A stretch of DNA of 64,000 bases. It comes from Bryum argenteum. Lineage: Eukaryota > Streptophyta > Bryopsida > Bryales > Bryaceae. A program made the translations under genes and the position numbers. The stretch spans positions 25,250,097-25,314,096 of the forward strand of contig CM073324.1 in the NCBI GenBank assembly GCA_037043015.1, written 5' to 3'. This document shows positions 1-52,929 of the stretch, piece after piece. Each line of letters starts with the position of its first letter. Positions within the stretch are counted from its first letter, which is position 1. The notes below the pieces were generated by a model. It was not told the DNA's origin, did not search any database, and was given only the letters and a program-made list of their open reading frames with translations.

Positions 1-575
1 CTAACAATAATAATAACAATAATTATATAGTATATAACCTTAAGATAATGGTATACAATTTAATATTGCATAATAATTATAGTATAGCGTAGTATAATGT
101 ACTAAAATATAGTATAACATAGTATATTTTATTACAATAGAATATTAAACGATAATATAAATATGTTTGAAAGATAATAATATATATCATATAATACTAC
201 ATAACATAAAATAATGTAAAACTTTTTCATATACGAAAATACATCATATTAGAATATTATATAATATAAAATAACATTTTCTATATTTTATAAGATATTA
301 GAAAAACTTCATAATACCATATAATACAATATATTACAAAGATAATACAGAAAATGTTGGAAATTATAGGAAATTATAGTAAATAATAGTATGATATAGT
401 TTAATAAAGTATCACATAATATTATATAGTAATATATTCTATCGAATAATTAGTATAATATAGTATAATATACTCTAATATATTATAATGTAGTATAACC
501 TAGAATAATCAAACATAATACAAGTTAATAGAATATAGAATAATAAAAGAATATCATATAGAATTATACTATAGG

Positions 576-577
<2 letters not shown>
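1..577. other. AT-rich gene-free DNA
   Basis: Very AT-rich sequence built from variants of TATAATA, AGTATAATA and ACATAATA. No open frame or RNA gene is visible. It looks like a diverged flank of the TATAA array that follows. Confidence 0.7.

Positions 578-630
<53 letters not shown>
578..630. repeat. (AT)n microsatellite
   Basis: An uninterrupted run of alternating A and T, about 26 dinucleotide units, followed by unique sequence beginning TGTTCTCAG. Confidence 0.95.
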
Positions 631-634
<4 letters not shown>

Positions 635-689
635 CTCAGATGTAAAATTATATAAAATAAAATCTCATAATACAATATAATATAATACA

Positions 690-1260
690 ATACAATATAA
701 TACAATATAATATAATATAATATAATATAATATAATATAATATAATATAATATAATATAATATAATATAATATAATATAATATAATATAATATAATATAA
801 TATAATATAATATAATATAATATAATATAATATAATATAATATAATATAATATAATATAATATAATATAATATAATATAATATAATATAATATAATATAA
901 TATAATATAATATAATATAATATAATATAATATAATATAATATAATATAATATAATATAATATAATATAATATAATATAATATAATATAATATAATATAA
1001 TATAATATAATATAATATAATATAATATAATATAATATAATATAATATAATATAATATAATATAATATAATATAATATAATATAATATAATATAATATAC
1101 TAAATATAATATAATATAATATAATATAATATAATATAATATAATATAATATAATATAATATACTAAATATAATATAATATAAAATAATATAATATAATA
1201 TAAAATAATATAATATAATATAATCTAAAATAATCTAATATAATCTAATATAATACAACA
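690..1260. repeat. (TATAA)n pentanucleotide array
   Basis: The 5-bp unit TATAA repeats almost perfectly from about 706 to 1097. Interrupted units follow (TACTAAATATAA, AAAATAATA, AATCTAATA) to about 1260. The pure core and degenerate edges are typical of an expanding microsatellite. No coding potential. Confidence 0.95.
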
Positions 1261-1487
1261 TACTATAATATACTAAATATAATATATAACTCTAATTTTG
1301 TAGTTATTATAGTTTATTCAATAAATACACTAATACGAATTCGTATTTCTTTTTCCACTTCTCATAGTTATGTATACAATGTTCAATTTTGTAGAGAAAA
1401 GTAGTATACAATATTTTATGTAAAAAATAAAAAACCGATATTTAGAAATGGGTTTCCCTCCAAAATCAGTTTCCCGCCGAACCATCT

Positions 1488-1969
1488 TTGCCGCCTAATG
1501 TTTTCAAATTTCAGTTTGAAAAAGTGGAATCGTATTTAGATTCCCAATCAAGACAAAATCCATATTGCGACAAAAACCTGTCCGCTTTTTGCACGAATTC
1601 GGGCATCGAGATACTCTCACGATGTACCCGTTGGGGTCGGGCTCGGGTTGCTTACTCGGTTTCTCAAGTGTCATTTCATTTTCTTCTCACTCTCTATCGT
1701 GCTCTCAAGGTGCGCTTCGTTCATATTTCGTTCCGGTGTATAGATTCAAGGTTCTGTGTGTGTAGAAGGAGTTTCAGTTGGTGCTCAATGCGTCTGATGT
1801 AGTTTCGCATTTATAGGTTTCAGTATTGTTGCATTAGTTTGAGAGTGATTCAAGTTATGACTACTGCTCCTCATGTTTCTTTTCGAATTCTGTATTAAGT
1901 ACTAATTTTTGTGCTTGGTTTTGTTCAGTTGCGAGCCGTTGTTTATCTTTCGAATTCTGCAATTCGCAG
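1488..1969 (+). other. Putative 5' leader exon of the DUF7869-type gene
   Basis: This stretch is less AT-rich than its surroundings. It ends at a good splice donor (TTCGCAG|GTGAGCG, GT at 1970). The next convincing acceptor (CTTATTTGTAG|G, AG at 3256-3257) sits directly before an ATG at 3259 that opens the frame of the downstream gene. The simplest reading is a non-coding first exon and a 1.29-kb first intron that contains the palindrome array. A 104-codon frame starting at 1488 has no recognisable domain and is probably chance. The exon is inferred from splice signals only. Confidence 0.35.
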
Positions 1970-2043
1970 GTGAGCGATGTTCGCAAATCGAGTGCAAGGC
2001 GTGAATGCCAGTATTTCAGCACTTACTATTAATAGAATGGAAG

Positions 2044-3135
2044 TTATCCCCGGGCCGGGGATAATTTCTCTTGTCTGTGGGGATTATTCCCATATGCTAT
2101 GCTCCGATTATTATCCACGGCCCGGGGATAAACATGCATCCATCCATTAAAACCATTATCCCCGGGCCGGGGATAACTATGTAACCGCCCACAAGAAACT
2201 ATTATCCCCGGCCCGGGGATAACAACATTTCGTAGGCGGTTACATAGTTATCCCCGGTCCGGGGATAACTATTCGACCGCCCACAAGAAACTATTATCCC
2301 CGGCCCGGGGATAACAACATTTCGTAGGCGGTTACATAGTTATCCCCGGCCCGGGGATAACTATTCGACCGCCCACAAGAAACTATTATCCCCGGCCCAG
2401 GGATAATAGTATTTCGTGGCCGGTTACATAGTTATCCCCGGCCCGGGGATAACTATTCGACAGCCCACAAGAAACTATTATCCCCGGCCCGGGGTTAATA
2501 GTATTTCGTGGCCGGTTACATAGTTATCCCCGGCCCGGGGATAACTATTCGACCGCCAAAAAATAACTATTATCCCCGGGCCGGGGATAATAGTTTCTTG
2601 TGGGCTGTCGAATAGTTATCCCCGGGCCGGGGATAACTAACCAACTGCCTACGAAATGTTGTTATCCCCGACCCGGGGATATTAGTATTTTGTGGGCGGT
2701 TACATAGCTACCCCCGGGCCGGGGATAACCATGCAACATTCACATAATACTATTATCCCCGGGCCGGGGATAATAATTTTTCTGCGCAGTTATTCCGTTA
2801 TCGCCGGCCCGGGGATTAACAACCAACTGCCCACTAAATACTATTATCCCCGGGTCGGAGATAATAGTATTATGTGACCGTTGCATGTTTATCCCCGGAC
2901 CAGGGATAACGAAATAACTGCGCACAAAAAACTATTATCCCCGGCCCGGGGATAATAGTATTTACTTCCGTTGCATGGTAACCTCGGCCCGGGGATAACT
3001 AACCAACTGCCTACGAAGTATTTTTATCCCCGGGTCGGGGATACTGGTTATTAGTGGGAAGTTTGTTTGTTATCCCCGGGCCGGGGATAATTCTTATTTT
3101 TTTGTCAGTTGCATAGTTATCCCGGACCGGGTTAA
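2044..3135. repeat. Array of 24 near-palindromes at 46-bp spacing
   Basis: The repeated core is TTATCCCCGG, one central base (usually G or C), then CCGGGGATAA: two perfect 10-bp arms around one base. Cores start at 2044, 2111, 2156, 2202, 2248, 2294, 2340, 2386, 2432, 2478, 2524, 2570, 2616, 2662, 2708, 2753, 2798, 2844, 2889, 2935, about 2978, 3024, 3070 and 3117. From 2156 onward nearly every step is 45-46 bp. The 24-25-bp sequences between cores are not unique: they alternate in orientation, one type beginning CTAT...ACCGCCCAC and the next being a diverged inverted copy ending ...GGCGGTTACATAG. The spacer at 2591-2615 is the exact reverse complement of the one at 2453-2477. The true repeat unit is therefore about 92 bp, and each core is the centre of an imperfect palindrome of about 71 bp. 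Cores at both ends carry more mismatches. Every core has CCGG sites, in sharp contrast to the AT-rich surroundings. Confidence 0.95.
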
Positions 3136-3258
3136 TCATGCAATCGCTCAGTTAACATATACTGACTAGTTTATACTCAACGGAATTTATGTTTTCTCAT
3201 CTCGTTTGCTATTAAACAAGCACTAAGCTATCTTCTCAATCTTCTTCTTATTTGTAGG

Positions 3259-6065
3259 ATGGAGACTTTCGTCGTCAATGGTGTCGATTTCCGTCCACCA
3301 GTTCTACCTGACGGAGTTGCACAGTGCGAGGGTTTTAACCGCTCATCATGGGTGTCGAAACGTGTCACTCTTCCGAATGACGCCGTGTCGAAGTTGCAAA
3401 TGCCGTCATCAATCGGTTGACTCTAGCATTGTCCCGAGTCCGTGGTCGGCCTCTTGGATCCGACTTTGTCTCGCGTGCGATTGCGAGTCATTAGTAGAAG
3501 CAGGTTCCTTTCGGTTGGATCTACTCTTTGCGTGCATGGCCGATCAAGCATGTCCTTCTCAACGGAGCAAGCCTCTACGACCACGACCAACGCGCCATCT
3601 TCAATGGAGCTTGCAAGGTTTTTGGTCGGCCACCACGAGTTGGTCTCCGTCAGTACGAGAGCAAACGTCAAAGACGTCTTCGGATTCACCACCAAAGAAG
3701 GAGTACTTTCTTACACCGGAGTCCATCAACTTTGTTTCAACAACTTATTGTTGTCCAAAGAACTGTGTGCAGCCCTATCCTCGAGCCAAAATTAAAGATC
3801 TGAGGTTCCAGTTCTATGTTCGCGGTGATGTTTACTTTAGAAAACATTGTCTCCTTAGTGTGCATGGTCAAGTCCACGGGCGGCGGACGGAAATGACATG
3901 ATTATGTTGGAGGGTATTGAGGTGTGTTGCGTGGCGTGGTACTGATTATGGGTGTGTCACGTGCCACATTTTTCCGGTGGAGGTATGCCTATCAAGACGG
4001 ACAAACAAGCGAGAAACCATGGAAACGTGGTTCAAAGAAACCTCGTATCCGGACATTGCAAGCCACAAAGATCCCTTCAAGCCATTGTGGAAAATGCTGC
4101 CGATCTCATGCCGCATTGAACAAAGACTATTGATTCAGGCGAGAAGGTAGTGTCCAAATGCTTGCCCTCCTCCTTCCGCTGGAGGGACAATTTACCAGAG
4201 GTGAATGCTATCAATGCCGTCCACGGTCTTCCTCCTATATCAAATTCTGCTCTAAGTAGGATCCGGCAAGAATCATTCCAAGAGTACTATTCCAAGCAAA
4301 AGGGCGACACATTTGCACGATGTGGTGAATGTGACAAAATCAAACAACTTCGAGCATCTAGTACTCGAGGCAGTCGCACATGGGCTCTTCATGATGCCAA
4401 ATTCAAACGTCATAATACTTCTCAAATGGCGCATAGGTTACTATATTATAGCAACCGTTCAGAGTCTGAGGCACGGCCCGAATCCTCTTTGTGCATTATT
4501 CATGACAAAATGGATCATTCCAAGACAGCCTCTCCGCAATTCTCACACAAGAGTAAATCGACCGATTCGTTCATGAAATTGCCGGTTTCCATCACAGGCA
4601 TGATTGCTCATGGACACGGAGATGTACGTTACGCACATTACGGCCTGGATATATATCCCACGGATTCTAATCATACTATCGGTTCATTTGCTCAACCTGT
4701 TAAGAGATTTGGAATCTCCTCCAAAGTGCTCTTCCGGCGGTTGTTTGGTGGTGGTAGAAGTAGCCTCTCTCTCGAGGTCATTTTGGATGGGGCGGACATG
4801 TGCTTGGATTCGCTTGGTCTTCTCCCGGAGGCTCCGATTCCGGGAAAGCCTCTTCCTCCGGTGCTACACATGCGGCTTTGATAATGCTTGCGGGGATAAT
4901 AAGAATCGGTTTGTTTTTGCATTCTTTTCATTGCTCGTTTACAAGGGCGTTTTTAGAGAGATTTACTTGAACTTCCTTATTGTGGGTCACACTCATGAGG
5001 ATATTGATGCTCTTTTCGGGCGATGGAGTAGTAAACTCAAGACCAACGGCTACCCTCTTGTTCCCCTTCTCATGAGATCTTTTATGGACACAGAGGATAA
5101 GCGGTAATTCCTCACTTAATTGAGGAAGTTCCGGATTTCAAGACGTTCATCAAAGGTTACCTCTGTGATGGCGACGAGGCGTTATCCGGGCATACTAGTG
5201 CCCAACAATTTAGGTTTTTAGAGATGCTTCCGGTGGCCTTTGATGCGAAGACAAAATTCTATGTACGGATAGCGAGTGGCTTCCTCAAGATAGTGCAGGG
5301 GTTAGGTTGTGGAAAGTTTTGCCAAATGGTCAACCTCAGGTTCCTCTTGGAGATCCTACGTTACTAGTTCCAAACGAAATGAAGAATATTGAAGACATTC
5401 GAAAGGGAATTAGTGGTTTTGTCAGCTTGTGGGAGTCTTTGGCGGATGCGGATCCAACAGGGGACTATCGTAGACATCATGAGCAATTCATTTACTATTG
5501 GAAAGCAGTTCGTGAGGCTTTAGATTTACCTGTCCCTACTCCATCAACATTTAGGGATGGATTTTGGCCCACTTCTAGGTACTCTCCAAGTGAAGAGGAT
5601 CGATTTGAAGATAACGGAGAATTACGCGAGGAATTTGCTGTTGATCCTCCGTTCGTAGGACAAATACGAGATCGTCCACAAGCATCATTCCGAATTGGAC
5701 GGGATGTTTATGAGGGATACCTACTTGTGCTACGTCCAGCTGATGGAGATCTCAAGAAATTTTGGATAGCTCGTGCTTTGAGCAATCCAAATGCTAGTGT
5801 AGAGCATCCTCAAGAAATCCACATTGAGTATTGGAAGCCGGTATCTTCGAAACATGTCAATCCTGACACTTACGAAGGGTGGGATACAAGAAGAGGTAAC
5901 TCTTGGTGTAAAGATATGGATTATGATCCAACTTGGGTGGCTACATCATCAATCATGGGAGCTTGGAAGCCAAGATTTCGTCTTGAAACCGTTAATCCCA
6001 AGATGTGCATACCGGAGCTACAAATTTCAATTATTAAAGACTCAATTATCGAGTTTGATGAGTAG
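3259..6065 (+). pseudogene. Degraded DUF7869-type gene
   Basis: This is a broken copy of a large multicopy plant/eukaryote family that I recognise as DUF7869-containing. Its role is not established; an integrase-like or transposase-derived fold is possible. From the ATG at 3259 the frame reads METFVVNGVDFRPP and stops near 3420. Recognisable pieces then appear in changing frames: VSRATFFRWRYAYQDG (about 3960); a Cys motif FARCGECDKIKQLRA (about 4310); IIHDKMDHSKTA and ITGMIAHGHGDVRYAHYGLD (4495-4650); DNACGDNKNRFVFAFFSLLV then VGHTHEDIDALFGRWSSKLK (4876-5040), the family's hallmark; then a long intact C-terminal frame (5307-6065) ending ...IEFDE. At least six frame changes and several stops (for example near 4124 and 5104) separate these pieces, so no full protein can be made. 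The family is clear; the family name is recalled, not searched. Confidence 0.8.
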
Positions 6066-7479
6066 TTCTCATATTAATATATAGTTATATTAGCTTATAT
6101 TAGTTACAATGGTGCATTCTTTCTCATCGCAATGTAGCCAATGCAAATTAGAGTAGTATGACACTACTCCTAGAGATGATTTATCTATTTATAGTAAGAT
6201 GATATATCCATTTCAATGTATTTCCATGGGATTATTTCCTTCCATTGGTGTTGTGATAATTTTATTTCCCTATATAAATTAAGATGTCCTTTGATCGGAT
6301 TACTTCTTATATATATTTTTCTTTAAAGTAATGATATTCATCATGCATAATACTTTTTGGTCCTCGAAGCTTGCAATCTATGACTCGAGTAATGAGATGT
6401 GAAGTAGTCTCAATATACTTTCCGTCTCAAAATAATGAATATTAATGATCAACAAATATATTAATAGAATTTTTGGTATCGAGGGTTCAAATTACATTCT
6501 TTTGTTGGGTTCATTCGAGTCTCATTTTCAATTGAGTCTCATTTTACTTGACACCAGATTTACTATTTTTAACCACCGATTTAAATTGAGATTGCAAATT
6601 GTCTCAAAATACTTAATATCCCCTTAACACTCAAACCCCAAAAACACTCTAACCCCACCATTCTACGGATTTAGATTAGACCGTTCGTATGAACTGAACC
6701 TCGTACCTCTTGGCGCCATCGGAAGCAGACATCTTGAAAGGGGTGGAAGCAGATCGTCGAAGCTTGCTTCGAATGTGCAAGGAGACAAAAGCGTTCAGAT
6801 AGAATGAAACGGAGCCTGGACGAAAGCAACGAAGGGAACCCCTCGTGCACATTCGAGATGCAGGTCACGAAACAGAATCACTATTCCGTCAAGAGAAAGT
6901 TCATCTATTATCATTTACATTGCTAACGCATGAGATTTTAACTTTCACCGAGGTCAAAGGCGTAAATCGACGGGTATTTCTCATAGGATTCGAGTGCATG
7001 CTCTCAGGAGCTTCAAGGTTGTGTGGAACCCGTTGCTCCGGAGCTATCTCCTATCCTTGACACCTTGAATGCTTCAAACGGAGGGTGATGGCAACATAAT
7101 TTTCGTGGGACTGAATAGAGTTCAATACAGTTCCTCAGAGACGCCACCCACTTCTAAAGCTAGCCAGATATTAGTGTGCAAGAAAAGCCAGTTCCCTTAA
7201 CATCAACTCTGCTCGTGGCAAACTGAACATCAACAGACTTGAAGAAGTGACCTGCGACCACTGTGAGGTTTCAGAAACTAGAGAATCAAACATCAGTGAC
7301 TTGACACTAAAATGCTAGTTTCAGACAAAAGTTAGATCAGTATTATGTTGATCACATGCCACTAAGTTCTTTTAAAGAGGACGAATCGACTACTACATCG
7401 AGACGAAGAACCGACACTCCCAGCACGAGGTTGGTGTGAAAAAGACAAGCCTGAAGGCAAAATCTCGATAGCTTCACAA
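6066..7479. other. No gene seen
   Basis: AT-rich flank of the pseudogene up to about 6640, then more mixed sequence. Only short frames without recognisable content occur. I see no RNA gene or clear terminal repeats. Confidence 0.5.
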
Positions 7480-9050: not shown

Positions 9051-9699
9051 CAGGGATGTCACGGCGTCCGGACGTCGGGTGGACGTCCGTCGGACGTCCG
9101 CAGGGGGTTAAGGGAGCGTCCGTGACTTAGAGATTTTGGACTTTTTACTTAAGGTAAATGGGGCGACCGACCTCTAGGATGGCCGTCGGCCCGAGCGACC
9201 GGCCCCCAGAATGGCCGTCAGCCCGGGCGACCGGCCTGCCGACCGTCCCGACCCGGGGCCACCGGCATGCCGACCGGTAGCTCAACAGCCGTCCGATCTA
9301 TTGCCGCAGCCTCCTACCGTTGGATTTCTCGCGGCCGACCAATCCCGACCGATCGGACGGAGCGACCGGATTCCAATTTTAGATTTTTTTTCCCCTTAAA
9401 TTCCGGTTGGGCCATCTGACCGGTCGGTCGGCTGTTATTGATCTGATGGTTGTAAATCTTCGAATCAAATCTCATGGTCACCACAACCTCCGGTCGCCTC
9501 GACCGGGGGCCGGTCGGAGCGAATTTTCTCGGTTGCTCTAAACAATATCAGATTTGAACGGCTTAGATGCGAGCTCCAAAAAGATCTAATGGTTGAAAAT
9601 TTTACTATTGTCCTAGTAATTCCAATTTCCCCGGGGCGATCCACGACGGACGTCCGTCCGACCAAAAAAACTCAAAAGACGTCCATATTGACATCCCTG
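9051..9699. mobile_element. Non-autonomous hAT-type element with perfect target duplication
   Basis: A 649-bp insertion with terminal inverted repeats CAGGGATGTCA (9051-9061) and TGACATCCCTG (9689-9699). It is flanked by an identical 8-bp direct repeat CTTGCAAT (9043-9050 and 9700-9707). An 8-bp duplication and CAGGG-type ends are diagnostic of the hAT superfamily. The interior is GC-rich, unlike its surroundings, and carries many short subterminal repeats on both strands (GACGTCCG, GACCGGTCGG, CCGACCG variants), as expected for hAT transposase binding regions. No transposase reading frame is present, so it depended on an enzyme supplied elsewhere. The identical duplication suggests a fairly recent insertion. 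Confidence 0.9.
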
Positions 9700-16300: not shown

Positions 16301-16380
16301 ATGCAGTGGATGTTAGGGCTTGTGCCGACAGAATTTTGCGTTGATGTGAGAGCTTTCTCGGACTTAAACAATCTGCCCTC
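13311..16380. other. No gene supported
   Basis: Several short frames exist on both strands (for example around 13725-13940, 14327-14515 and 14724-15040), but none shows a domain or joins to another with good splice phases. The 14.3-15.1 kb part has more balanced composition and could be a decayed gene. The rest is AT-rich. Confidence 0.4.
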
Positions 16381-16550
16381 CTCGCGAAGTCTACCAATCC
16401 TCTCCTCGCGAAGCCTTACAATCCTCTCCTCGCGAAGCCTTACAATCCTCTCCTCGCGAAGCCTTACAATCCTCCCCTCGCGAATCCTTACAATCCTCCC
16501 CTCGCGAAGCCCTAAATCTGCTCTCCTCACACAGGCCTACAATCTGCACT
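16381..16550. repeat. 24-bp minisatellite upstream of the 176-aa gene
   Basis: The unit CTCGCGAAGCCTTACAATCC plus TCTC repeats at 16381, 16405, 16429, 16453, 16477 and 16501, exactly 24 bp apart. A seventh, degenerate unit starts near 16526. Because 24 is a multiple of three, both strands stay open through the array, giving repetitive peptides such as SSRSLTIL. I read those frames as a by-product. The array lies 90-260 bp before the ATG at 16642, so it is probably promoter or 5' leader sequence. Confidence 0.9.
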
Positions 16551-21980: not shown

Positions 21981-22165
21981 ATTATGTTTCCCCGGATTGT
22001 CGATTCTGTTCGATCACCGCAGCGCGTGTCAGGAGCTTCTTTTTCGACCCGATTGCTCCCGACCGAGGGTTTTTCTTTTGCTACCAACTATAGGCGCATT
22101 CATTCCTTTGATTCGAGTATTTGAAAGTTGAAGGAGGAGGCGAGGGAGTATTGCAAGCAAGCGCC

Positions 22166-23893
22166 ATGGATCTCCTGGCGCAATACGGGGATGGCCCGGC
22201 CTCGCGCCCGGCAGGAGAGCTCAGCAGTGATGGAGTTTCATCGCCGGATTCATCGCCAATCCGGCTGCTGGAGCCGCGGCGCTCTGCCGCCCCGGAGGTA
22301 AGCAGCGATGCCTTGCTCGTGGTCACAGGAGGCTCCGAGCGGAAGCCGCTCGACCCGTCACAGCGGAAGGTTAACTACAATCCCACGGCCGAGCAGCTGT
22401 GGGCGCCCGTGGCCGGTCCCGAGCACCCGTACGCGAAAGACGGGGTCGCACAGGGGCTCCGCAATCACAAAATAGGGTTTGTGGAAGACGCTGCCATTGC
22501 GCCCTTCATGTTCGATGAGCAGTACCACACGTTTCATGCCTACGGATTTGCGGCCGATCCCGGCGCCACTACCGGACACAATATTGTAGGCGATGCTGAT
22601 GCGGTCCAGGCCAGTGATGGAGCGTCGGTGTTCAACCTGCCGCAGCACGAGCACCGGAAGCAGCGGAAGGAGAATAAGAAGCGGCCGAGGACTGAGGACG
22701 ACGGGGAGGACGTTGACGATCCTGCTTCTGATCAATGGCTGCTGAAAAACTCGAAGTCGCCGTGGGCTGGGGAGAAGGAAGGGCTTCAGGGCGAGCTTAC
22801 GGACGAGCAGAAGGTTTACGCTGAGGCTCATGCCGAGAAGAAGAATCAAAAGGAGAAAGGCGACAAGGTGGAGACTGATGATAAGAGTACTTTCCATGGG
22901 AAGGAGGAGGTTGATTACCAAGGTCGCTCGTGGCTTAGTCCTCCCAAGGATGTCAAAGCTTCCAATGAGCATTGCTATATCCCGAAGCGGTGGGTTCACA
23001 CATGGAGTGGACACACGAAAGGTGTTTCTGCGATTAGGTTCTTCCCGAAGTCTGGTCATCTTCTCCTCTCCGGTAGCATGGACACCAAGGTCAAGATCTG
23101 GGATGTGCATAACAGTGGGAAGTGTATGCGAACGTACATGGGCCACTCGAAAGCCGTGCGGGACATCACATTCAACAATGATGGCTCGAAGTTTTTGACC
23201 GCTTCTTATGATCGCAAAATCAAGCTTTGGGATACAGAGACTGGACAGGTGGTGTCGACGTTCACAACAGGGAAGATTCCGTATGTGGTGAAGTTCAATC
23301 CTGATGATGATAAGCAGAACGTGCTGCTGGCGGGGATGAGTGACAAGAAGATCGTCCAATGGGACATGAACACTGGGGAGATTAACCAAGAGTATGATCA
23401 GCACTTGGGTGCTGTCAACACCATTACCTTTGTCGATGACAATCGGAGGTTTGTCACATCGAGTGATGATAAGTCGCTGCGTGTGTGGGAGTTCGGCATT
23501 CCTGTGGTCATCAAATATATCAGCGAGCCACACATGCACTCCATGCCTGCTATTACTGTGCACCCGAATTCGCACTGGTTTGCTGCACAGAGCTTGGATA
23601 ACCAGATTCTTATCTACAGTACTCGGGAGCGGTTCAGGCTGAATAAGAAGAAGCGTTTTGCTGGGCACATTGCCGCTGGGTATGCATGCCAAGTGAATTT
23701 CTCCCCAGATGGGCGATTTATCATGTCAGGAGATGGTGAAGGTCGCTGCTGGTTCTGGGACTGGAAAACCTGTAAAGTGTTTCGCACTCTGAAGTGCCAC
23801 GACAGTGTATGCATTGGAGCTGAATGGCATCCCTTGGAGCAGTCTAAAGTGGCCACTTGTGGCTGGGATGGTCTCATCAAGTACTGGGACTAG
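22166..23893 (+). CDS. PRP17: Pre-mRNA-processing factor 17 (WD40 spliceosome protein)
   Basis: A 575-aa protein in a single uninterrupted frame, close to the usual length of Prp17/CDC40. The ATG at 22166 (GCGCCATGG) was chosen because the family starts MDLL-; the frame stays open 15 codons upstream, but only from a TTG. The N-terminal half is charged, with a basic patch [15 protein letters not shown] (about residues 170-185), likely nuclear targeting, and the family-typical segment [16 protein letters not shown] (about 241-256). Seven WD40 blades run from about residue 276 to the end; visible blade ends are KVKIWD, KIKLWD, KIVQWD, SLRVWE, QILIYS, CWFWDW and IKYWD. In yeast and animals Prp17 enters the activated spliceosome and acts around the second catalytic step; this copy should do the same in the nucleus. 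Coding sequence is much more GC-rich than the flanks. The lack of introns could be ancestral or reflect a retrocopy; no poly-A trace is evident just downstream. Confidence 0.96.
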
Positions 23894-27366: not shown

Positions 27367-27704
27367 CACTACTACAATTTGAGGGGGTTTACAGCGTTTT
27401 CTTCTCAATCGTTGCTTAAGTTTAGCAACATTTTGAAACTTGCTTGAACAATGTTCTCAAGAAAATAAGCAGCGTTATCGGATCACCAAGCAACGTTATC
27501 AGATCACCAAGCAACGTTATTGGATCACCAAGCAACGTTATCGAATCACCAAGCAACGTCATTTGTTATCTAGTTAAAAACGTTGGAATGCTTATTTTCT
27601 TGAGAACGTTGCCCAAATAAGTTCCAAAACGTTACTAGACTTGAGCAACGTTTACACAAAAGCAACGTTTGTAACATTGCATACTCCCCTCTTTTCTAGT
27701 AGAG
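27367..27704. mobile_element. Non-autonomous CACTA-type element
   Basis: A 338-bp insertion beginning CACTACTACAATTTGAGGGG and ending CCCCTCTTTTCTAGTAGAG, an imperfect inverted pair. A 3-bp ACA lies on each side (27364-27366 and 27705-27707). CACTA ends and a 3-bp duplication are the signature of CACTA (En/Spm) transposons. Longer inverted arms inside (about 27405-27466 and 27589-27650, sharing GTTCTCAAGAAAATAAGCA) enclose four tandem copies of a 21-bp unit, GTTATCGGATCACCAAGCAA plus C. No coding sequence. The last bases (GAG rather than GTG) have mutated. Confidence 0.75.
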
Positions 27705-52201: not shown

Positions 52202-52400
52202 CATTGCTACGTCAAGTCTCGGCAATAACGTGAGTGAGTCCCATTGCAACGTCAAGTCCCGACAATTCCGTGATTGAGTCCCATTGCCACATCAAGTCTT
52301 GACAATGCCGTGATTAAGTCCTAAATTGCGGCGTCAAGTCCCGACAATACCGTGATTGAGTGCCATTTCACGTCAAGTCCCACCACTACTGTAATTGATC
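52202..52400. repeat. 40-bp minisatellite, five units
   Basis: The unit CATTGCNACGTCAAGTCCCG then ACAATNCCGTGATTGAGTCC starts at 52202, 52242, 52282, about 52323 and about 52363. Units differ at several positions. Non-coding. Confidence 0.9.
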
Positions 52401-52929
52401 CCTTTAAAAACTGAAGACTATAAATCAAATCATGTGTTCACATCACATCTTTGCGACATGGTAATGCCAAAACTGAGTGTGAGTGTTACAGAACTGAGGG
52501 GATCATTAGGGGAAATAATACTATCAGACACCTCCTTTCGAACATATAGTTCTATAAAAGATGATAAAACAAGAGTACCTTCACAAAACATTATTACCTA
52601 ATGTAAAATTCAAAAAGTGGGTCTTATCAAACTCAAAGGATCCTAATACAAACCATAGCTTTACATTGCAACTTCACATCATGGAAAGTTCATACCTTAG
52701 TCCTATGAAATTTACGAGATCATCAAATGTAACCTATTTCCATATCATAAGAAGTTAAAAAAAGGTCAAGCCCAAAAAAGGCCCCTTTAGATTGAGCACA
52801 AGTTTTGTTTTTAAGTATCATTTGCATAAAGAAGTCTAGGAGTAAGTATCACTAGAAAATTGGATCTAGAGTGGTCCCATGCACCAAGAAGAAAAGTGGC
52901 GCCAAGTCAAAATTTAAACTTAGTGGAAA
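52401..52929. other. No gene seen
   Basis: Two short plus-strand frames (52395-52601 and 52561-52758) without recognisable content. Confidence 0.45.

Follow-up and report, generated by a model that had tools for sequence, protein, structure and literature searches.

What is a dense array of regularly spaced palindromes doing in the genome of the moss Bryum argenteum? The array lies near the start of the 64,000-nucleotide stretch analyzed here (the window; contig CM073324.1, hereafter C4, positions 25250097-25314096), where an initial annotation had described palindromes on a 46-bp ruler with alternately inverted spacers. We found that this array belongs to a 21.5-kb DNA transposon at C4:25235208-25256721 (window -14888 to 6625), an assignment that we regard as practically certain. 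Judging from the sequence, the array is best explained as a cluster of palindromic sites for protein binding, one of two such clusters within a transposon of about 20 kb.

The array (array 1; window 2044-3090) consists of 23 copies of the palindrome TTATCCCCGG-N-CCGGGGATAA, mostly 45–46 bp apart. All 23 match with at most three mismatches and 13 are perfect, the free center base aside; 100 dinucleotide-shuffled versions of the window contain none. A 24th palindrome at 3116-3136 is much decayed, with eight mismatches in an ungapped comparison. After a first step of 67 bp, the remaining steps measure 43–46 bp. The array reported in the initial annotation is thus real, and the alternating inversion of its spacers also holds in the window: among 12 consecutive 25-nt spacers from position 2156, neighbors share 56%–80% identity when inverted versus 12%–24% when aligned directly (11 comparisons), and the spacer at 2591-2615 is the exact reverse complement of that at 2453-2477. 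The foldability claimed for the array was likewise confirmed, as single-strand folding of 2156-2655 is far stronger than that of shuffled sequences (z -25). The ratio of observed to expected CpG, compared in two elements, is 0.87–1.10 in the arrays, 1.16 in the 5′ leader and 0.72–0.91 in the gene, AT-rich and transposase parts, differences too weak to carry an argument.

Searches covering the 258.8-Mb genome (25 contigs) yielded 30 array loci. Ten of these repeated a place already matched, so that the distinct copies number 20. They hold 10–25 sites each, and in all 20 the array adjoins the same gene, which rejects a free-standing satellite. The 2.9 kb following the array match at least 40 places (40 of 654 candidates were scored); at 35 of these 40, the window's own included, the match extends over at least 2.4 kb at 93%–100% identity. 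From a comparison of the copies, the left end of this family (family 1) was identified as AAGGGGATATTCGTTATTTTGAGACAA and the right end, in inverted orientation, as AAGGGGATATTAAGTATTTTGAGACAA. Genome-wide, the end pattern gave 77 forward and 89 reverse matches, and none in a reversed control. The terminal inverted repeats (TIRs) are 27 bp long and begin with AAGGGGATATT, and a 4-bp target duplication flanks 12 of the 12 family-1 copies checked. Given its inverted ends and a duplication of fixed length, the element is a TIR DNA transposon. The window contains its right-hand 6.6 kb (1-6625, plus strand), delimited by the paired terminal repeats and the 4-bp duplication, and the left 14.9 kb lie outside. 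The right TIR, AAGGGGATATTAAGTATTTTGAGACAA as read on the minus strand, occupies 6599-6625, followed at 6626-6629 by the target-site duplication AACA, whose partner is found just before C4:25235208. This context had escaped the initial annotation. Dispersed mobile palindromes were also rejected, for the four apparently isolated places among the matches listed are fragments of the element.

In the copy at C1:957871-980068, the order is left end, phosphatase gene (minus strand), accessory frames (minus), array 2, AT-rich stretch, array 1, DUF7869 gene (plus), and right end. The phosphatase gene matches NLI-interacting-factor (CTD-type) phosphatases at L041:3112-3942 (C1:959112-959942, minus strand; E 8.5e-15). 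The minus-strand open frames together look like one accessory gene, and another copy has a 996-residue open frame at this place. The presumed transposase gene (window 3259-6065, plus strand) is open in the window copy only in pieces in differing frames, and its DUF7869 match spans 4877-5080 (plus strand; E 2.5e-23). DUF7869 (PF25273) may be linked to Sola transposons. The likely ATG of the gene, at 3259, lies 120–170 bp past the array and is preceded by an acceptor-like TTTGTAG, and a donor-like CAG/GTGAGC is present before the array (1966-1975, plus strand; recognized from the letters only). Because these donor- and acceptor-like sequences flank the array, array 1 may lie inside a 5′ leader intron. 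An ATAAT-type AT-rich microsatellite that is common to other copies occupies the middle of the element (386-1286).

The window element carries 50 palindrome sites with at most four mismatches, of which 30 are perfect; 19 of 20 Markov simulations gave none and one gave a single site. Array 1 contributes 23 of the 50 and array 2 another 17, with 10 elsewhere. All are internal: the first is 1.6 kb away from the left end, and the distance between the last and the right end is about 3.5 kb. In array 2, the steps are mostly 61–63 bp, and its palindromes in the window copy, most of them perfect, are separated by at least three unrelated spacers. Within a 730-residue open frame of the C1 copy (L041:4442-6631, minus strand) there are five palindromes, spaced by 117, 174, 99, and 99 bp, which translate in frame to YPRAGDN-like peptides. 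The sites precede the transposase gene, precede and enter the divergent accessory gene, and lie inside open frames.

Three conservation tests with differing failure modes agree on which part of the unit is maintained. When every unit is compared with the next but one in its array (291 pairs, 13 decayed sites restored), 11.4% of the letters differ in palindromes versus 28.1% in spacers, and with decayed sites excluded the palindrome is better conserved than the spacer in 20 of 20 copies. A fixed register applied to the window, which involves no site calling, gave 6 of 200 differing letters in the palindrome versus 40 of 250 in the spacer. At matched edge positions in the 20 copies, the first three palindromes vary at 3/399 (0.8%), 21/399 (5.3%), and 10/393 (2.5%) of letters, the spacers between them at 114/920 and 53/478 (11%–12%), and the upstream sequence at 272/3853 (7.1%), the value for the second palindrome being only slightly below the upstream one. 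The copies share descent, so that these changes are not independent events; the descent is identical for palindrome and spacer. Palindrome and spacer thus change at different rates, rather than the tandem units evolving as wholes, as a neutral satellite would.

The conserved block stops sharply at 21 bp, with a free center base that is usually G or C. Changes on both sides of a palindromic pair number 17 versus 17.4 expected, of which 10 are complementary and seven are not, and a one-sided change disrupts 466 pairs; within the family there is no excess of compensating changes. As a selected hairpin should show compensation, the sharply bounded block together with two-sided changes at chance level points to a symmetric binding site on double-stranded DNA. 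Selection for a hairpin was rejected on these grounds, and the palindromes are very probably selected sites that are read as double-stranded DNA.

The spacing behaves differently. Array steps are mostly 38–49 bp across the 20 copies and 23/36/79, 41, 47, 52, 62, or 77–88 bp in related families, and in two of the 20 copies (L027 and L029), as nearly in L023, neighboring spacers align about equally well direct and inverted. Because neither spacing nor spacer orientation is conserved, the 46-bp ruler is best read as a side effect of tandem duplication. The ruler of the initial annotation stands in the window, where every step after the first is 43–46 bp, but fails elsewhere, as the spacing differs between copies and families. 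As a conserved design it is refuted on the annotation's own terms, which had named spacing not kept in other copies as decisive. The head-to-head 92-bp unit finds no support as a functional feature, given the variable spacer orientation. Nor does helical phasing, which we rejected since steps of 38–49, 61–63, 41, 47, 52, and 77–88 bp have no common phase. An efficiently amplifying foldback, also put forward in the annotation, accounts for changes of copy number within an array but not for the slower change of the palindrome or its recurrence among unrelated spacers.

With the accessory protein as query, we found diverged families. F2 (C1:6351173-6361187) is 62%–69% identical to family 1 in a transposase fragment and 43% in the accessory protein, and the accessory protein of F4 (C3:6059139-6072903) is about 47%–57% identical to that of family 1. 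Both retain the family-1 palindrome, decayed or slightly varied, among other spacers and periods; F4 has a plain 47-bp period and symmetric palindrome changes such as GC-N-GC. A sister family, F3, is represented by a whole element (C1:6692997-6710801) with ends AACACGTAATTCGTTAT, the gene order of family 1 and a DUF7869 match at E 2.7e-41. Its arrays occupy the positions of the family-1 arrays, with steps of 52 bp at 6701212-6701628 and of 79–88 bp at 6706704-6707272, just before the transposase gene. These arrays are built on the palindrome CATTTAGCTCGA-N-TCGAGCTAAATG, which has 28 sites with at most six mismatches in the F3 element and 3774 per strand genome-wide, and none in a reversed control. 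The family-1 palindrome has no site within five mismatches in this F3 element, and the F3 palindrome none within seven mismatches in the two family-1 elements examined. The layout is common to the relatives, with another palindrome in one of them. Arrays precede the transposase gene in families 1, F2, and F3, and the same three families have a palindrome site located between the two pieces of the accessory gene or at their edge; in F4, where the comparison covers the first piece, a site lies just after it. Among the roles considered in the initial annotation, a protein-binding array fits best, to judge by the sharply bounded 21-bp block that is kept as spacers drift and by the exchange of palindromes between families in the same layout; a methylation center or a small-RNA source, which it also named, would be further candidate roles.

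Several further observations concern these relatives. An exact 4-bp duplication flanks six of eight F3 copies checked, the exceptions being C1:6692997-6710801 and one other; two of the eight, examined by eye, are miniatures. Such miniature derivatives of F3, inverted-repeat elements of about 150 bp with both ends present, were seen at L095 and L096 and also at C1:24570335 and C1:25373070, and the two that were read contain decayed F3 palindromes and the exact 4-bp duplication. The terminal repeats of family 1 and F3 agree at positions 1-2, 6, and 9-17, whereas positions 3-5 and 7-8 differ, as though a short stretch of the end were specific to the family. A general rule that the tip of the terminal repeat equals the palindrome half-site was rejected, as it holds in family 1 and not in F3. 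F3 also has a weak phosphatase match in the same gene order (58 residues, 33%), and F2 encodes a similar peptide, HPRPGDN, in a context similar to that of the in-frame family-1 sites. In two different families, AT-rich microsatellites (ATAAT and ATTATATT) separate one array from the other (window 386-1286 and L097 2838-3105). The outer halves of the F3 palindrome resemble the KorB operator, TTTAGC-S-GCTAAA, probably by chance. No exact copy of the palindrome was found in viral contigs.

What might read these sites? The families encode a diverging accessory protein with a DGQH motif whose fifth residue is S or H (DGQH[SH]), and this protein is less conserved than the transposase (43% versus 62%–69% between F2 and family 1). 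A first structure model of its domain was poor; a later model resembles ParB/sulfiredoxin (Srx), and the core is tentatively predicted to adopt this fold. In sequence searches of PDB, Pfam, NCBIfam, and PADLOC, the accessory protein had at most weak matches at chance level, and the downstream accessory piece has no Pfam match above cut-off. Two members touch DUF6551 at a chance-level E value of 0.24; DUF6551 is named as fused to a ParB/Srx fold in phages (PMC12704722). The VANC domains DUF1985 and DUF287 had no match among nine open reading frames and two further open frames, a search at the level of frames rather than of complete gene structures.

These data enable us to propose a putative model. 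A dimeric protein made by the element would bind each palindrome as double-stranded DNA. This reader is probably encoded by the element, and on balance we favor one that is also specific to its family. The likeliest candidate is the accessory protein with its predicted ParB/Srx core, an assignment that we make only tentatively. The reader would load at the clustered palindromes and then cover the element, so that host silencing is kept off, as with VANC on VANDAL elements, or the two divergent genes are tuned. Anti-silencing might be the principal outcome, ahead of autoregulation or transposition, which we likewise offer with reserve. Tandem duplication of palindrome plus spacer would multiply the sites, resulting in a spacing that is regular yet functionally irrelevant.

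Four other explanations were considered. The palindromes might be sites for the transposase or an accessory factor, needed to assemble the transposition complex like the TnpA sites of CACTA elements. The family-1 TIRs, starting with AAGGGGATATT, do share GGGGATA with the palindrome half-site, and two 150-bp F3 miniatures with both ends and the 4-bp duplication retain a partly decayed F3 palindrome. However, the sites of the window element are internal, starting 1.6 kb from its left end and stopping 3.5 kb short of its right end, and are clustered before genes, and the F3 terminal repeat lacks the half-site of its own palindrome, which makes this explanation unlikely. Sites for a host transcription factor or insulator, taken up as promoter repeats and amplified by slippage, would agree with clusters that precede the transposase gene and the divergent gene. 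We consider them improbable, as a sister family has a different palindrome at the same positions, sites also occur inside open frames, and the four locations inspected as possible sites outside elements turned out to be fragments of elements.

The very strong folding (z -25) and the symmetric changes in F4, such as GC-N-GC, would suit a hairpin or cruciform, or double-stranded RNA from a leader intron, with the sequence kept only for pairing. Against such a structural role, two-sided changes within the family are at chance (17 versus 17.4) beside 466 pairs broken one-sidedly, and the conserved block ends at 21 bp though pairing could go further; its probability is very low. Equally slight is the chance of a neutral tandem satellite inside the transposon, homogenized by gene conversion: copy number and spacing do vary freely, but these 21 bp reappear between unrelated spacers, across several element regions and in relatives whose protein is 43% identical, and the matched first sites vary by only 0.8% across 20 copies.

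A family-specific, element-encoded reader would have parallels in known systems. VANC proteins bind motif clusters that are specific to the family and lie in noncoding parts of the element, over which loss of methylation spreads (PMC5735166). As in VANDAL21 and VANDAL6, the transposon described here carries an element-specific short motif in dense clusters or tandem repeats in its noncoding parts, introns and intergenic parts in the VANDAL case. The motif also differs between related VANDAL families, and VANC is reported to be much less conserved than the transposase (PMC5735166), as the accessory protein is less conserved here. The VANC21 motif, however, is 9 bp, non-palindromic and in one orientation (PMC5735166), whereas the present sites are odd palindromes of 21–25 bp, some of them in open frames. 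CACTA elements with TnpA sites, such as the 20.5-kb Tgmt*, are similar in their large size, subfamily-specific repeated motifs and a presumed co-evolving binder encoded by the element. They differ in having subterminal motifs, CACTA ends and a 3-bp duplication (PMC2613891), whereas the window element has AAGGGG ends, a 4-bp duplication and internal sites.

Clamps of the ParB type are loaded at specific sites, from which they slide along the DNA (PMC12704722, PMC11790492). KorB with its OB operators on RK2, like ParB/parS, combines operators near and far from promoters with a ParB-fold reader that loads there and slides (PMC11790492). The window element likewise has many palindromic sites on the same DNA, 50 in all, and its accessory protein may share the fold; in site layout the system corresponds to VANC. 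The setting is a eukaryotic transposon and the protein has DGQH[SH]. DndB/DGQHR proteins have the ParB/Srx fold, tentatively predicted in our case, and the DGQH motif with R as fifth residue (PMC12704722, PMC4619093); here the fifth residue is S or H, and the accessory protein has no sequence-family match. Sola2 resembles the element in its 4-bp target duplications, short TIRs and passenger genes, the transposase side of this comparison covering DUF7869 (PF25273) only; the available part of its description does not mention palindrome arrays (PMC3627910).

Among openly licensed papers, mostly judged by title or the start of the abstract, we found none that describes a transposon with palindrome arrays of this type, or the present combination of features. 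The system would belong to a known kind, transposon-encoded and motif-specific self-recognition. It bears on the open question of how transposons tell their own DNA from that of the host, for which VANC is one plant example. Sister families in one genome, with the same layout, different palindromes and diverging accessory proteins, form a ready-made pair for swaps of site and reader. If a ParB-like protein does read the sites, the DNA-clamp principle of bacterial chromosomes and plasmids would extend to eukaryotic transposons. A broader and more speculative version, rather unlikely as it stands, is that eukaryotic giant transposons possess ParB/parS-like self-marking: a ParB/Srx-fold protein would load at dozens of family-specific palindromes, spread over the 20-kb element and mark it as self against silencing or for gene control, with palindrome and reader co-evolving and sister families running separate systems.

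Elsewhere in the window, a GC-rich patch at 9061-9660, outside the element, contains imperfect GCGACCGG-type repeats. Further tandem repeats at 16378-16528, 27467-27559, and 52202-52402 (units of 24, 21, and 40 bp, respectively) seem to have no relation to the palindrome. On the plus strand, an open frame of 590 residues at 22121-23893 contains WD40 repeats and putatively resembles the splicing factor CDC40/PRP17.
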